From NCBI GenBank assembly GCA_016458225.1, contig JAEMGR010000038.1, forward strand, positions 1 through 64,000: a stretch of 64,000 nt of DNA, in the 5' to 3' direction. Made by a program: the position numbers and the translations under genes. Positions 54,021 through 60,280 of this stretch are shown piece after piece. The first letter of the stretch is position 1, and each line of letters starts with the position of its first letter. Below the pieces are notes generated by a model. The model was given only the letters and a program-made list of their open reading frames with translations, had not been told where the DNA came from and did no database searches. The stretch comes from Myxococcaceae bacterium JPH2. Its GTDB lineage: Bacteria > Myxococcota > Myxococcia > Myxococcales > Myxococcaceae.

Positions 54021-54929
54021 TCAAGGCGCGGCGGGACTCAGCTCGGCATAGGGCGGCGCGATGAAGCGGGCGCCCGGCTCCTTGCGAAACCACGTGAGCT
54101 GCCGCTTGGCGTAGCGGCGCGTCTCCTGGGCGGTGTCGTGGATGGCCTCCTGCATCGACATCCGCTGCTCCACCACCGCGCGCGCCTGCACGTAGCCCAC
54201 GCTGCGCATGGGCGCCGCGTCGCCGTAGCCAAGCGCCAGCAGCTCGCGGGTCTCCTCCACGAGCCCGCGGGCGAACAGCGCCTCGGTGCGTGTGTTGATG
54301 ACCTGGTACAGCGCGTCTCGCGGCGGCTCCAGGACGTACAGGTCGAAGGGATATCGGTCCGGCGCGAAGGCGTGGGCCCGGCGGAACTCCGACGCGGGCA
54401 CGCCCGTCTGCGCGTGGATCTCCAGCGCGCGGATGACCCGCAGCAGGTCCTGGGGCGGCAGCTTCGCCGCGGTCGCTGGATCCACCTGGGCGAGCCGGCG
54501 GTGCACGGCCTCGCGGCCCTCGGCAACAGCAAGGGCTTCGAGTTCGCTCCGCAGCGCCGGCAGTGCGCCAGGCGCATCCACCACGCCGTGCAGGAGGATG
54601 CGCAGGTACAGCCCCGTGCCCCCCACGACGAACACGGGCCTGCCTCGCGCGGTGATGTCCGAGATGGCGGCGTCCGCGCGCCGTTGGTACTCGGCCGCGG
54701 AGAACGGCTCGAGCGGCTCGACGACCGACACCAGGTGATGCGGAACCGCCGCCAGCTCCTCGGCGGAGGGCTTGGCCGTTCCAATGTCGAAGCGCTGGTA
54801 GACCTGCTGCGAGTCGGCGCTGACGATCTCCCCGCCCGCGCGCTCGGCCAGCCGCACCGCGAGGGCCGTCTTGCCCGATGCCGTGGGGCCCGCAATCACC
54901 GTGAGCCGTGGCCGTGCTTCCTCACCCAA
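54021..54929 (-). CDS. miaA: tRNA dimethylallyltransferase
   Basis: 302 residues. Adds a dimethylallyl group to A37 of tRNAs reading U-starting codons. P-loop VIAGPTASGKTALAVRLAE, SADSQQVYQRFDIGTAKP, GGTGLYLRIL and TRRYAKRQLTWFRK are all present. The TTG start at 54929 overlaps the stop of the HprK-like kinase by eight bases and has GGAGG at the right distance, so miaA appears to be the last gene of the peptide operon, probably for reasons of genome packing rather than function. Confidence 0.95.
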   Translation of the reverse strand: MGEEARPRLTVIAGPTASGKTALAVRLAERAGGEIVSADSQQVYQRFDIGTAKPSAEELAAVPHHLVSVVEPLEPFSAAEYQRRADAAISDITARGRPVFVVGGTGLYLRILLHGVVDAPGALPALRSELEALAVAEGREAVHRRLAQVDPATAAKLPPQDLLRVIRALEIHAQTGVPASEFRRAHAFAPDRYPFDLYVLEPPRDALYQVINTRTEALFARGLVEETRELLALGYGDAAPMRSVGYVQARAVVEQRMSMQEAIHDTAQETRRYAKRQLTWFRKEPGARFIAPPYAELSPAAP

Positions 54930-55779
54930 GCGTCGCCTCCAGGCGCGCGCGTAGCACCGTCACCGCCGCGCTGTCGCGCGTGAAGTGCAGCCGGCCCGTC
55001 GCCACCTCCGACAACAGCCGCGACGCCGAGGCAATCATCGCGCTCCGTCCCGCCGGCGAGGACTCGGGCAGGAGCGCATTGAGCAGCAGCACTCGCGCCA
55101 CCTCGCCCGCGCCCTGTGATTCCCAGCGCGACGGGGCATCCCACGCCAGGGTTCCCACGGCAGCCAGTGCGGCCTCGGACTGTGTTCCCAAGAGGTTCCA
55201 TGGCGTGCCCGCGGCCCGCCACGTCCGGGATTCTGCATCGGGCCAGATCGCCACCAACTCGTCCGCGAGCACGAGCCCTCCCGCGTCGCGCCAGAGCGTC
55301 CCCAGCGTGCTCTTGCCCGCGCCCGAGTGCCCCACGAACAACGCGGCCCGTCCTGCGTGCGCCACGCCCACGCCATGGATGAGCAGCCCGCCGCGCCGGG
55401 CCAGCTCGGCACCGAGCATCACCTTGAGCGCGGTCTCCACGGGGAACATCCCCGCGCCCGTCACGAGGGCCCGCGCGCCGTCAGCGGAGAGCTGAACCGT
55501 GTAGTCCTCTCCTTCCAGGTGCAGGCCGCCGTCCGGAGACCGTCGTGCCTCGGGGAGCGCGCGCTGGGCGGGCGCGCAGCGTGGCTCACTCGGCGCGCTC
55601 AGCACCAACGTCGCCGAGGGGATGGCCCTCTCTCGCGCGGGGAAGCGGGCCAGGAGTCTGCGGGTCGCGGCGGCACTCGCCGAGGTGCCCAACTCCATCG
55701 CCACCGTCCAACCGGCGAGGGTCGCATGGAGCGAGCGGTCGGGGCCCGGTGAAGGGCCCGCGTCGCTCACGGCACGCAT
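54922..55779 (-). CDS. HprK-like kinase of the peptide operon
   Basis: 285 residues from the ATG at 55779; a GTG at 55770, overlapping the peptide stop as GTGA, is equally plausible. The ATP loop GHSGAGKST lies at about 148-156, within LLIHGVGVAHAGRAALFVG-type surroundings, followed by LADELVAIWP as in HPr kinases. HprK homologues occur beside PqqD-like proteins in several bacterial clusters and one group phosphorylates the tail of lasso peptides (paeninodin type). The HPr-binding and regulatory features of true HprK are not seen. A role in modifying or handling the 56-residue peptide is inferred from position only. Confidence 0.82.
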   Translation of the reverse strand: MRAVSDAGPSPGPDRSLHATLAGWTVAMELGTSASAAATRRLLARFPARERAIPSATLVLSAPSEPRCAPAQRALPEARRSPDGGLHLEGEDYTVQLSADGARALVTGAGMFPVETALKVMLGAELARRGGLLIHGVGVAHAGRAALFVGHSGAGKSTLGTLWRDAGGLVLADELVAIWPDAESRTWRAAGTPWNLLGTQSEAALAAVGTLAWDAPSRWESQGAGEVARVLLLNALLPESSPAGRSAMIASASRLLSEVATGRLHFTRDSAAVTVLRARLEATLG

Positions 55780-55937
55780 TCCGATTCGCCGGGGATGGTG
55801 CACATGGACGTCTGGGCGAGCGCCACGAAGGGCTGCTCCCAGAGGATGGCGGGCGGCGAGTAGGCCTCGAGCCGAACTCCCGGGGTGGGAGCGGCTGGGG
55901 TGGGCGTGACAGGCGCCTGTTCGGGACGAGGACTCAC
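55767..55937 (-). CDS. Small 56-residue peptide, candidate RiPP precursor
   Basis: A short frame of 57 codons from GTG 55937 to TGA 55767. A Pro/Ala/Thr-rich stretch at 2-20 precedes the motif Y26-S-P-P-A-I-L-W-E-Q-P-F37, and the C-terminal tail (38-56) holds Cys46 and Cys54 with GES between them and ends VP. The Y..P pattern recalls leader motifs read by RRE-fold proteins of lasso and related peptides. The GTG overlaps the stop of the large secreted gene (GTGA, 55934-55937) and the stop overlaps the kinase start, so it is placed to be translated. PqqD-like and S24/S26-like genes occur upstream in the same operon. Coding status is inferred; no homologue search was possible. Confidence 0.7.
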   Translation of the reverse strand: MSPRPEQAPVTPTPAAPTPGVRLEAYSPPAILWEQPFVALAQTSMCTIPGESECVP

Positions 55938-58900
55938 GGGAACGGCACCGGGTAGGCGCAGATGCGGCCGTCGGCCGTGCCTACGTGAAGGCGGCTGACG
56001 GTGTGATCGATGGTGGGTGTACCGATGCGCTGAGCGCCGCCGATCGCGACCTGTCGCGAGTCGATGCCCTCCAGCTCGAGCTGATGCACCTTTCCATCCG
56101 AGCTGCCCACGTAGATGCGCGCCACGCCGGCCTGATTGATGGAGAAGGTTCCGGAAGGGTCGGCGATGGGGAGGCTCCAGGCGCGGGTCACGGCGTTGTC
56201 CGTGCCCACGTCATAACGCTCGATCTTGCCCACGGACGCTCCATTTCGCGCCACGCTCGCCACGAAGCCGCGCCCCTGGGGACGCACGAAGCTGGTGAAC
56301 GCGGGAGTGTTGGCGGACGGCCGCGAGGCGACGACCTGGGTCCAGACCGGGGCGAGCGTCACGGGATCGATTCCATACACGGTACCGTCGCTGGAGGTGA
56401 CGAGGATGTGCCCGCTGGCCGCATTGCGCACCACGCCGAACTCGATGTCGCCCAGGGCCCGGCGACCGACCTCGGCCCCGGTGAGCGTGTTGAGGACTCG
56501 CAGCGTATTCGTCGCGCCCGCGGCTGTCTTCGAGCCCACGTACAAGCGGTTGCTCGTGTAGTCGACCAGCATGCCGCCACTCACCATGCCCATGTCCCCG
56601 GGGCGATAGGTCCACACCACGGCGCCCGTGGCGGCGTTGAGCGCGACCACCTGATTCAGCCCCACGTTCGAGAGCCGCGTGGCGAAGAAGACGAGGTCCC
56701 GGTCGGGGTTCGCCGCGCGATAGGCCGCATCCGCGTAGTCGTAGAGCTGAGTGACCGGGAAGGACTGCACGGTGCCCACATTGGCGCCGCGCCAAAGCAC
56801 GTCGCCCGAGGACGCCCGGATGGCCGAGGGCACGCCGGACTGATCTCCCACCAGGATGAACTGACCGGTCAGGCCGTGGAGCGGAACCACGGGGAAGCGA
56901 CTCCCCACCAGGCCCGACAGCTTCACGGGCCGCCAGCGCTCACCGCCATCGACCGAGGGGTTCACGGTGTTCGTGCTGCTGGCCACCACCGAGTCGTTGA
57001 AGGAGGTGAAGATGCCTACGCCCAGCTCGGTGATGGGCTGGAGTCGCGCATCCAGCCCCACGGAGTAGCACCAGAGCGGCGCCCCCGCGCCCCGCGCCAA
57101 CGGAGTGGCGAGCAACCCCGCCGAGGTGGGCTGATTGCCACTGCCGTACCGGCGCGAATCATCCGCGTTGAACACGCGGTACACGTAGGTGGTGCCGTTG
57201 GTGACGGTGGTGTCCGTGAACGTGGAGGCCACGCTGAACGCGTCTGAGTAGACGACGCGAGCATTGCCCACCGTGTCGCCCGCCGCGTAGCGCAGGCCCG
57301 GCGTCGGCGCGGTGCTGGGCGCGGTCCCTTGGGCGCGCAGGACGACCACGCCACCGTGCACCGGCGGATTGTCCCACGTCAGCGCCACGGAGCCATCTCG
57401 CGCGGTGGCCGTCAGTTGCTGCACGTCGGCCGCGGTCGCGGAGGTCAGCAACGTCACGGGCGCCTCGATGCGGATCCGCGGATCATTGTCCCCCTGATTG
57501 AGCTGGAGGCGATGGCGGAAGGCCGTGTCCGCCCCCACGGCACCGAAGCTCGAATACGTCACGGAGAAGGACGCCTCGCCACCCGCCGGAATGCCCTGGA
57601 AAGAGGCCCACGTGTAGCCCGAGGCGTCCATGTCCGAGAGGTACCAACCCGAGGGCGGCATGCCCAACGACAGGATGCCGAAGTAGTTGGTCGCGGGGCG
57701 CAGCAGCTTCACTTCGTAGATGGGCCCCAAGCCGCGGTTCTGCACCGTGTAGACGAGGGGCCGGTTGGTGCTGCTCGCCGACACCGCGTCTGGAGTGATG
57801 CGAACGCGCTGCGCGACGATGCGTCCTCGGGCCGCGGCCACCAGGTCCGTCGCCGCCGCCGAGCCATTGAGTGTCCCGTCGGCTTGGGCCTGGAACATGT
57901 AGCTCGTGCCCGGAGCGCCAGAGACCTGATAGCGCCAGACGAACTGCGCGGAGGCCCCGGGCGCCAGGCGAGGAATGCTCGCGGGAACAGGCCCCGAGAC
58001 GAGCGTCGTCGAAGCAGTGCCTGTGCGAACGGGCGCGCGCGGGACCACGTTGAGGTAGGTGTTGGACGCGGAAGCGTTGCTCACGGTGAGCCGCACCTGG
58101 ACCTCCTCGCCCGTGAAGGCCTGGAGCGTGTCGACGTCGGCCACCGCGCTGAAGTTGCCCACGTCCACCATGGGCGCCTCCGCCACCAGCGAGGAGTCCG
58201 CTGGGCTGCTCGGGAAGTCCACGGCGCGCACCTGCGCGACGGCGGTCCCCCCACCGGACGGCTGGACATTCGCCACCAGGATGCCGGCGCCGCGCAGGGG
58301 CAGGGTCACCTGGAACGGCGATGGCTGCGTCCCGACGACTTGGAGCGCGACGTTCCCCGAGGTCGTCGGGCCCGTCATGGTGATGTTCGGCTGCACTTGT
58401 GTGGTGCGGTTCTCCACGACGACGCGCGTGGCGGCGGTGTCGCTCAGCGCCATCGCGCGGGGGAGCACGGTGACGCCGGCCACCAGGCCCACGCGCGTCC
58501 AGCTCGCGTTGGTGGAGGGCGTGACGGCGGTGATGCTCTGGCAGTGGTCTCGCGCGACCGTGGAGCCCGCGGACGTCACGAATCGCTCGTTGGACTGATC
58601 CCGATTGGCCGCGGGCGCCACCACGCTCAGGATGAAGCGGGCCTTGCCCAAGCGAGGCAGGCCATAGGTGCTCCCCGAGCAGGAGATGGTCGACTGGAAG
58701 GCGATGCGCCGCGTGGTGTTGTCCAGGTCCGTGATGCGCCAATCCGGGTTGGAGGGATCCGGCGCCGCGCCGATGACCATGTAGTCCTTCGGCAGGACGA
58801 AGGACACCTCGGAGAGCCGCTGGTTCGCCTGGGCGGGCGTGGTGTTGGTGACCTCGATGAGCAGCTCGGAGACCTCGTCCATCACGACCCGCGGCGAACT

Positions 58901-59008
58901 CTCGTTCGGCGGAGTGATGGCGGTCGCGGTCCATGACAGCGCGAGCGCCGAGACTGGGAAGAGCACCAGCGCGAGCAACGCAGCGAAGCGAACAGTCAGG
59001 GCGTGCAT
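55934..59008 (-). CDS. Large secreted protein: beta-rich repeats, FN3 and PQQ-like propeller
   Basis: 1024 residues from the ATG at 59008. Signal peptide MHALTVRFAALLALVLFPVS with ALALS cleavage region. Residues about 25-520 are beta-rich and look like several Ig/CARDB-type domains. About 528-633 is a fibronectin type III-like domain (LTATARDGSVALTWDNPP ... TYVYRVFNADD). About 645-1024 is a beta-propeller with PQQ-like repeats, for example VVALNAATGAVVWTYRPGD and LRVLNTLTGAEVGRRALGD. No catalytic residues recognised; it may bind something at the cell surface. Eight bases after the lipoprotein gene, and its TGA overlaps the peptide start. Confidence 0.82.
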   Translation of the reverse strand: MHALTVRFAALLALVLFPVSALALSWTATAITPPNESSPRVVMDEVSELLIEVTNTTPAQANQRLSEVSFVLPKDYMVIGAAPDPSNPDWRITDLDNTTRRIAFQSTISCSGSTYGLPRLGKARFILSVVAPAANRDQSNERFVTSAGSTVARDHCQSITAVTPSTNASWTRVGLVAGVTVLPRAMALSDTAATRVVVENRTTQVQPNITMTGPTTSGNVALQVVGTQPSPFQVTLPLRGAGILVANVQPSGGGTAVAQVRAVDFPSSPADSSLVAEAPMVDVGNFSAVADVDTLQAFTGEEVQVRLTVSNASASNTYLNVVPRAPVRTGTASTTLVSGPVPASIPRLAPGASAQFVWRYQVSGAPGTSYMFQAQADGTLNGSAAATDLVAAARGRIVAQRVRITPDAVSASSTNRPLVYTVQNRGLGPIYEVKLLRPATNYFGILSLGMPPSGWYLSDMDASGYTWASFQGIPAGGEASFSVTYSSFGAVGADTAFRHRLQLNQGDNDPRIRIEAPVTLLTSATAADVQQLTATARDGSVALTWDNPPVHGGVVVLRAQGTAPSTAPTPGLRYAAGDTVGNARVVYSDAFSVASTFTDTTVTNGTTYVYRVFNADDSRRYGSGNQPTSAGLLATPLARGAGAPLWCYSVGLDARLQPITELGVGIFTSFNDSVVASSTNTVNPSVDGGERWRPVKLSGLVGSRFPVVPLHGLTGQFILVGDQSGVPSAIRASSGDVLWRGANVGTVQSFPVTQLYDYADAAYRAANPDRDLVFFATRLSNVGLNQVVALNAATGAVVWTYRPGDMGMVSGGMLVDYTSNRLYVGSKTAAGATNTLRVLNTLTGAEVGRRALGDIEFGVVRNAASGHILVTSSDGTVYGIDPVTLAPVWTQVVASRPSANTPAFTSFVRPQGRGFVASVARNGASVGKIERYDVGTDNAVTRAWSLPIADPSGTFSINQAGVARIYVGSSDGKVHQLELEGIDSRQVAIGGAQRIGTPTIDHTVSRLHVGTADGRICAYPVPFP

Positions 59009-59016
59009 GGCGGGCC

Positions 59017-59550
59017 TCAAGGCTCCAACGTGAAGGTCGTGGTGGTGAGTGGCGCGCCGTCCAAGAAGAAGCGCACGCCCCACGCGCCGCTCATTCCCGA
59101 CGACGCGATGGCCGTCCCTGCCACGGGCAGCGTGAAGGAGACCGACACGGGCCCGCCCGCGGCAGCCTCCACCGCGCGAGCGCGCTTCTCATACGGCAGC
59201 CCACCGGGTGCGACGAACTCGACCTCCACCCTCCCCGCCCCCTGGAGGTTCAGGATGTCCAGTTGGATCCGGACCTCGTCGAGCGTCTCCATGCCGGGCT
59301 CGCCCGTGGGGAGCTGCACCGTCGCACGGCCCTCGACGGGCGCGAGCGAGGGAGGGGCCACCGGGACGACTTGCTCCTCGGGCGCGGGGGGACGCGGCGT
59401 CACCTCGGATCCGCCGCCGAGGACATCCGTGGGATCCACCGGCTTGGGCTCCGAGGTCGGAGGCTGGACCGCGGGAGGCTGTGGGGATTTCGCTTCGGTA
59501 CACGCCGTGAGCCACAAGGCTCCAGACAGGGCCACGATGAGCGCTCGCAT
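59017..59550 (-). CDS. Putative lipoprotein of the peptide operon
   Basis: 177 residues. MRALIVALSGALWLTAC is a lipoprotein signal with the cysteine at 17. A Pro/Thr/Ser-rich linker (about 20-80) precedes a beta-rich domain with RIQLDILNLQGAGRVEVEFV and a GGPVSVSFTLPVAG segment. The start at the ATG at 59550 lies two bases after the PqqD stop. It may anchor a complex containing the 1024-residue protein to the membrane; this is inference from the tight gene order. Confidence 0.78.
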   Translation of the reverse strand: MRALIVALSGALWLTACTEAKSPQPPAVQPPTSEPKPVDPTDVLGGGSEVTPRPPAPEEQVVPVAPPSLAPVEGRATVQLPTGEPGMETLDEVRIQLDILNLQGAGRVEVEFVAPGGLPYEKRARAVEAAAGGPVSVSFTLPVAGTAIASSGMSGAWGVRFFLDGAPLTTTTFTLEP

Positions 59551-59552
59551 CT

Positions 59553-59879
59553 TCACTCCTCGCGCGCCGGCCCGGAGCCCGCGCGACAATCCTCGATCAA
59601 CCCCAAGCGCACCAACTCCGAGAGAAACCCCAACGTGTCGCGCAGCACGGTCTCCAGCGAGAGCCCTGGCCCCCTCGGCGCATCGACCTCTTGCACGAGT
59701 TGCTCCGCGACTCCGCGCGCGCTGCGAGAGCCATCACACAGATCCCAGATGCGCGCCGCCGTCGCGTTGAGCCCGCGCAAGGTGCGCCCCTCCGCGTCCA
59801 GCAACAAGTAGTCGGCGCCGAATGGCTTCCCATCCGTTCCTGCGCGGCGACGGGGAATGCCGTCCTCGGGGAAGCTCAT
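59553..59879 (-). CDS. PqqD-family protein (RRE-like)
   Basis: 108 residues from the ATG at 59879, which overlaps the peptidase stop as ATGA. The PqqD pattern is clear: a beta start (YLLLDAEGRTLRGLN), then LNATAARIWDLCDGSRSARG and a helical tail with LSETV-like LSELVRLGLIED. PqqD-type folds act as peptide chaperones that bind leader peptides of RiPP precursors, or as partners of HprK-like proteins in other systems. No PqqE-type radical SAM enzyme is found here. A likely partner is the 56-residue peptide four genes downstream. Confidence 0.86.
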   Translation of the reverse strand: MSFPEDGIPRRRAGTDGKPFGADYLLLDAEGRTLRGLNATAARIWDLCDGSRSARGVAEQLVQEVDAPRGPGLSLETVLRDTLGFLSELVRLGLIEDCRAGSGPAREE

Positions 59880-60280
59880 GCGCGCCTCCCCTTCCCCCAC
59901 CACGCGGCCAGTCGTCGCTTCACGCGCACGCGAAGCCGGCCCAGCCGCTTCGGGCCTACGTCCCAGTGCTCCAGCACCGCACCGGCGCGACGCACGCGCC
60001 GGACCTTGCCGAGGATGCGAGACGCAGGCAGCAGTGGATCCACGCTGGCGACGTTGTCGCCCTGGAGCGTGCAGGTGCGCCCGTCAAACCCACACACGCG
60101 GTGCAGGACAAGTGCGTGGGGAAACCGCGCCAGCACCACGTCTCCGACGCGCGGCGGGCCGGACAGCGGCTCCACTTCGGCCGCGTCGCCTTCCCGCAAC
60201 GAGGGCCACATGCTGTCCCCCTCAACAGGGAGCCAGCTCACCCCCGTGGGAGCAGAGAGGCTAGAAGACTCTCGCGGCAT
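59876..60280 (-). CDS. S24/S26-family peptidase, Ser-His type
   Basis: 134 residues from the ATG at 60280. Nucleophile S23 in GDSMWPSLREGD (21-32), as in signal peptidase I and its relatives. Where bacterial enzymes have Lys, this one has H60 in LVLHRVCGFDG, as in the archaeal/ER-type signal peptidases that use a Ser-His pair; LQGDNVASVD (72-81) supplies the acidic residues. No membrane helix is visible, unlike true signal peptidases, so it may process a substrate in the cytoplasm. First gene of the operon; the only upstream region is the gap to hisS. Confidence 0.82.
   Translation of the reverse strand: MPRESSSLSAPTGVSWLPVEGDSMWPSLREGDAAEVEPLSGPPRVGDVVLARFPHALVLHRVCGFDGRTCTLQGDNVASVDPLLPASRILGKVRRVRRAGAVLEHWDVGPKRLGRLRVRVKRRLAAWWGKGRRA

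Follow-up and report, generated by a model that had tools for sequence, protein, structure and literature searches.

The window, a 64,000-nucleotide stretch of contig JAEMGR010000038.1 from Myxococcaceae bacterium JPH2, contains a six-gene unit on the minus strand that is likely to be a maturation cassette for a phosphopeptide of the linear polyphosphorylated peptide (LPP) type. LPPs are a family of RiPPs described in May 2026 in Bacillota, with LppA/B/K/S/D/N of Paenibacillus alginolyticus (PMC13381572). The three processing proteins and the register of the peptide match those of LPP while the nucleotidyltransferase and the exporter are absent, and we therefore describe the operon as one that probably works like LPP, as a variant of that kind outside Bacillota; the likeness is one of parts and motif. 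Among the papers searched, none describes such a cassette from myxobacteria. The nearest named relative of the genome is Citreicoccus inhibens.

Organization of the unit

The unit is located between hisS and miaA, with the peptidase gene first and the kinase gene last. The features are listed below.

59876..60280, minus strand: S24/S26-type peptidase, 134 aa, putative leader peptidase, LppS-like (PF00717, 1.7e-8)
59553..59879, minus strand: PqqD-fold RiPP recognition element (RRE), 108 aa, LppB/B1-like (PF05402, 1.7e-13)
59017..59550, minus strand: small exported lipoprotein, 177 aa, with an LTAC lipobox (from sequence; same place in Myxococcaceae loci)
55934..59008, minus strand: large exported protein, 1024 aa, ATG at 59008 (PF13360/PF13570; AF2; Foldseek)
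55767..55937, minus strand: precursor peptide, 56 aa, with a GTG start that overlaps the stop codon of the large-protein gene (conservation, purifying selection, alignment)
55815..55862, minus strand: conserved leader end of the precursor, Y26-A41, YSPPAILWEQPFVALA, with the predicted RRE-binding motif YxxPxI and ALA (register of the LPP consensus)
55770..55814, minus strand: predicted core, QTSMCTIPGESECVP, with two near-invariant Cys (alignment; inference for the window peptide)
55806-55808, minus strand: Ser44, core Ser3, predicted phosphorylation site (alignment; Ser3 of LppA and BsfA, PMC13381572, PMC10368454)
54922..55770, minus strand: putative HprK-fold peptide kinase, 282 aa, LppK/BsfK-like (AF2 fold; motif spacing)
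54021..54929, minus strand: miaA, a housekeeping neighbour outside the system (TIGR00174, 7.4e-77)

The sequence-only reading had described a tight leftward gene set, and all the genes that it named are present on the minus strand at the coordinates given. The five junctions within the unit, as read from the sequence, comprise three overlaps (ATGA between the peptidase and the PqqD-fold RRE, GTGA between the large protein and the peptide, and GTGA between the peptide and the kinase) and two gaps (2 nt between the RRE and the lipoprotein, and 8 nt between the lipoprotein and the large protein). The kinase gene overlaps miaA by 8 nt. The same reading had counted miaA as part of the set, which is ruled out by synteny: miaA is separated from the unit by several kb in three loci (L074-L076) and inverted in another (L081), so it is a neighbour only.

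The 56-residue peptide is a conserved gene

The small frame is present in 53 of 96 Myxococcaceae genomes (E<1e-3). In the loci inspected, the kinase gene adjoins the peptide gene and the gene order is the same: in Citreicoccus, Corallococcus, Myxococcus/Pyxidicoccus and other Myxococcaceae the genes run peptidase-RRE-lipoprotein-large protein-peptide-kinase. With this spread among genomes, and with this constant place beside the kinase in the inspected loci, the frame is not due to chance. The N-terminus of the peptide varies freely in the alignment, and the last 31 residues are nearly constant (YxxPAILWEQPFVALAQxSxCxIPGESECxP). A comparison of 41 distinct canonical sequences shows 20 of these 31 residues to be invariant; synonymous codon changes occur at 16 of the 20, and pN/pS is 0.31. 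The 56-residue peptide is a genuine gene under purifying selection. Two results could have undone the earlier reading, namely loss of the small frame in orthologous loci or an order of peptidase, PqqD and kinase genes unique to this strain; the frame is kept and the order is family-wide. The precursor has no match in the PDB by sequence.

Of the 49 distinct peptides matched, 48 have a Ser at +18 from the Tyr. Divergent peptides lacking it occur at L080, with Ser at +19, and at L082, with Thr. At L080-L082, the window-type peptide, RRE and kinase are present, and a peptidase gene was not found beside them. Two genomes outside Myxococcaceae (G033 at L096 and G011 at L144) also encode window-type peptides. 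The L096 operon, which belongs to another Myxococcota family, has YEPPAIAWDEAFEPLT before the predicted cut and AAS after it, with Ser at +18; here a Thr precedes the predicted cut, as in LPP. A Myxococcus-type operon was also seen in a record titled Comamonas sp. KCTC 72670 (L120, BNCN01000013.1), and because such an operon sits under that title, the record is likely mislabelled or contaminated.

RRE, peptidase and kinase

The best profile match of the RRE is TbiB1 (6.7e-11), and LppB (9x8z) is matched at 6.1e-9. In LppB, residues N33, D70, F74, M78 and L83 hold the leader Tyr/Pro or line its second pocket (PMC13381572). They correspond to N38, D81, F85, L89 and L94 of the window RRE, each of which 18-19 of the 19 homologues retain; the position of LppB M78 is a Leu in the window protein. 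The RRE had no match on plasmids.

The peptidase residues S23, H60, D75 and D81 are invariant in 17 homologues, and the peptidase profile aligns with the catalytic region of SEC11A. No membrane helix is predicted for the peptidase by hydropathy. Compared with the Ni-SOD maturation protease (TIGR02754), the peptidase scores 30 bits, which is below the curated cut-off of 63. It shares the peptidase fold and a Ser-His type catalytic motif with this protease and with the SipW/SEC11 signal peptidases, from which it differs in its link to an RRE and a kinase.

The kinase matches the HprK models weakly by sequence (TIGR04352, 2.5e-4, 20 bits where the cut-off is 200); it is related to HprK-related kinase A (TIGR04352) and is not a member. 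The AF2 model has a pLDDT of 91.6, and among the 50 PDB matches listed it resembles solely PEPCK and HprK/P, so the modelled fold is clearly that of HprK/PEPCK. The motif H132-G147-G150-G152-K153-S154-D170-E171 has a spacing identical to that of BsfK (H148-G163-G166-G168-K169-S170-D186-D187; PMC10368454), with Glu (E171) as the last motif residue in the window kinase and Asp (D187) in BsfK.

Comparison with linear polyphosphorylated peptides

The LPP precursor has the consensus YxxPxVLxHQxIxFETxxS (PMC13381572). A discrete RRE binds this precursor, an HprK-like kinase places multiple phosphates on core Ser3, and a SipW-like peptidase of the Ser-His-Asp type cuts behind Thr-1 (PMC13381572). The Ser at +18 is the LPP phosphosite, as shown by mutation (PMC13381572). 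The window peptide falls in the same register, counted from the Tyr: Y0, P3, I5, L6, Q9 and Ser18. Beyond the YxxPxV anchor, three of eight LPP positions match the window peptide, with a chance probability of about 0.005. The LPP residues H8, I11, F13, E14 and T15 are unmatched, and the window peptide has E, F, A, L and A in these places. A13-L14-A15 precede the predicted cut, so that the residues before the cut are ALA in the window peptide and FET in LPP.

The two systems are alike in having a discrete RRE, an HprK-like kinase and a Ser-His-Asp signal-peptidase-like enzyme without a cyclase, and their precursors are alike in a YxxPxV/I-L-xx-Q leader and a Ser at +18 from the Tyr. With its PF00717 domain, invariant S/H/D/D and SEC11A match, the window peptidase fits the SpI/SipW-like Ser-His-Asp type to which LppS belongs, LppS being compared by its description. 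The sequence-only reading found a match to no complete known RiPP class, a statement that no longer holds because LPP matches the operon closely. The conservation, the leader and pocket residues, and the close likeness to LPP support its prediction that the 56-residue peptide is the target of the RRE, the peptidase and the HprK-like kinase.

The differences are also distinct. LPP clusters typically contain a nucleotidyltransferase and an MsbA-like ABC exporter, both of which are absent among the operon genes. LPP cores are variable, whereas the window core is near-constant across the family and has two Cys. Unlike LPP, the window operon co-encodes an exported Ig/propeller protein and a lipoprotein. 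LPP is found in Bacillota and is patchily distributed, whereas the window operon is found in Myxococcota and is syntenic across a family. In the source, LPP is called restricted to Bacillota and patchily inherited, with a role that is not known, and the main text names no Myxococcota (PMC13381572). Against that reported restriction, very similar machinery is stably and syntenically maintained in Myxococcaceae, and related cassettes occur across Myxococcota.

A constant peptide could instead serve regulation or scaffolding: the RRE and the kinase would bind it for control of the kinase, or peptide, RRE and kinase together would aid assembly of the exported propeller protein. The near-invariant core in the family, the operon without an exporter, the close co-location with exported proteins and the fact that most loci keep the unit steadily between hisS and miaA are consistent with such a role. 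However, the LppS-type leader peptidase is conserved, the leader and the phospho-Ser register agree with LPP, and sister cassettes have strongly varying cores, which makes this explanation unlikely.

Comparison with phosphorylated lasso peptides

Phosphorylated lasso peptides with HprK-like kinases are known, and BsfK of Bradymonas phosphorylates core Ser3 (PMC10368454). The bsf cluster of Bradymonas sediminis shares with the window operon an RRE, an HprK-like kinase whose motif is spaced identically, a YxxPxL leader and Ser3 as the phosphorylation site, a predicted one in the window peptide (PMC10368454). However, bsf has a cyclase, a cysteine peptidase B2, an ABC transporter and a nucleotidyltransferase, and the window locus is without all four. 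Paeninodin-type lasso clusters share an HprK-like peptide kinase and a discrete RRE, and differ in having a WxxP leader, C-terminal Ser phosphorylation and a cyclase (PMC13381572, PMC10368454).

The window peptide could accordingly be read as the precursor of a lasso or other cyclised RiPP, with a cyclase and a cysteine leader peptidase supplied in trans. The YxxPxI leader, the RRE of lasso B1 type with TbiB1 as its top match, and the existence of phosphorylated lasso peptides would agree with this reading. In contrast, no lasso cyclase (Asn-synthetase) or B2 (Transglut_core3) gene lies near the operon; the matches in its own genome are on other contigs, and the sole Transglut_core3 match is marginal. 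In addition, a serine peptidase stands in for B2, the predicted core starts with Gln, the first acidic residue of that core comes at position 10, beyond the ring positions 7-9 (PMC10368454), and the acid positions in the core are not conserved. We regard a cyclised product as improbable.

Proposed maturation pathway

In the LPP-type reading, the RRE would bind YxxPxI of the 56-residue precursor and present the precursor to the HprK-like kinase, which would add one or more phosphates to Ser44. The Ser-His-Asp peptidase would then cut after Ala41 (ALA/Q), between A41 and Q42, to release a 15-residue core, QTSMCTIPGESECVP, carrying phospho-Ser3. Once oxidised, the core would probably form a Cys5-Cys12 or similar disulfide. 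The calculated MH+ of the core is 1581.66; each phosphate would add 79.97 (1661.63 with one, 1741.59 with two), and oxidation of the two Cys would subtract 2.02. We infer the RRE binding of YxxPxI, the phosphorylation of Ser44 and the A41/Q42 cleavage from LPP and Bsf together with the conserved residues. The action of the kinase and the peptidase on the peptide, the site of the cut and the disulfide are likewise predictions. With low confidence, we propose that the product acts at the cell surface together with the two exported proteins of the operon, the Ig/propeller protein and the lipoprotein.

Large exported protein and lipoprotein

The large protein has a Sec signal, Ig-like sandwiches and a C-terminal PQQ/BamB-like beta-propeller (about 640-1020). 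PF13360/PF13570 propeller domains are found in all 24 large-protein orthologues scanned (24/24). The large protein has no match in the PDB by sequence, and its fold came from structure: the AF2 model (pLDDT 86.4) is a chain of beta-sandwiches with a C-terminal propeller. Foldseek relates the propeller to BamB, a fold likeness that says nothing on outer-membrane assembly. The invariant Cys647 and Cys1017 lie at the two ends of the propeller and may close it. The lipoprotein, in which no known domain was found, is kept in the same place across Myxococcaceae loci.

The sequence-only reading had the peptide placed with the large exported protein. What the loci show is that the precursor gene is recurrently paired with the gene for the exported Ig/propeller protein, a pairing that is genetic only. 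Since the pairing recurs, with two propeller types in two cassettes, it suggests that the peptide serves its co-encoded exported protein, gene adjacency being no proof of interaction. The exported Ig/propeller protein is a candidate partner for such phosphopeptides. Myxococcus xanthus offers a genetically tractable relative for probing the role of such phosphopeptides.

A second cassette and relatives across Myxococcota

The same genome contains a second cassette (L099:8371-16489; contig C1, about 478-486 kb). It encodes an RRE, a lipoprotein in a 2006-residue frame that combines Ig-like and FG-GAP domains, a peptide containing YRPPQVRSEKLLVSDLFTVS, a kinase of HprK-like type and a peptidase-like protein in which the pattern GRSLYP...H...GNLDP is seen. 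In frame after the peptidase-like protein, an acetyltransferase-like domain is recognized by eye, with no Pfam match in the fragment scanned.

Among 195 Myxococcota genomes, an RRE or S24/S26 peptidase lies within 12 kb of 52 of 69 distant kinases; the places of kinase, RRE and peptidase were matched by distance and not by gene calling, and many of the loci are closely related to one another. A small ORF with [YW]xxPx(hydrophobic) is located just upstream of the kinase in 26 of 37 inspected loci, compared with 6.9% at random control positions. This count includes related loci, which are not independent, so a binomial p-value overstates its significance. Cassettes across the phylum contain an RRE, a giant Ig and FG-GAP lipoprotein, a YxxP peptide, a kinase and usually a peptidase, and their core sequences differ widely. 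In the Pfam scan, all eight type-B large proteins (L099, L132, L133, L134, L136, L137, L145 and L149) combine FG-GAP repeats with domains of the Ig-like or fn3 kind, and all eight sit between the RRE and the peptide.

That the six genes are unrelated and form a chance operon with an incidental small frame is scarcely credible: the place of the unit between the housekeeping genes hisS and miaA might suggest it, but the order is constant in Myxococcaceae loci, miaA is separable while the six genes remain together, and the same set is found again in other Myxococcota families.

A broader proposal, which we hold only tentatively and consider rather doubtful, is that RRE/HprK-kinase/S24/S26-peptidase cassettes occur phylum-wide, sometimes two per genome, and that each phosphopeptide is dedicated to one co-encoded Ig/propeller protein. 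If so, the pair would be a new kind of surface or recognition system in which the modified peptide acts as ligand, anchor or assembly factor for its surface protein, with a PQQ propeller in the window cassette and an FG-GAP propeller in the second cassette.

An FG-GAP protein also borders the bsf cluster, as in the sister type-B cassettes, and was presumed uninvolved by the authors of that study (PMC10368454). Because the place of the FG-GAP protein is constant in type-B cassettes, it may be a real component.

In three loci of distant Myxococcota families (L101, L141 and L146), a radical SAM protein replaces the type-B large protein in its place, beside the RRE, the kinase and an S24/S26 peptidase. 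The peptide of L101 and L141 has a Gly/Cys-rich core containing NEALMGICKGGLG.
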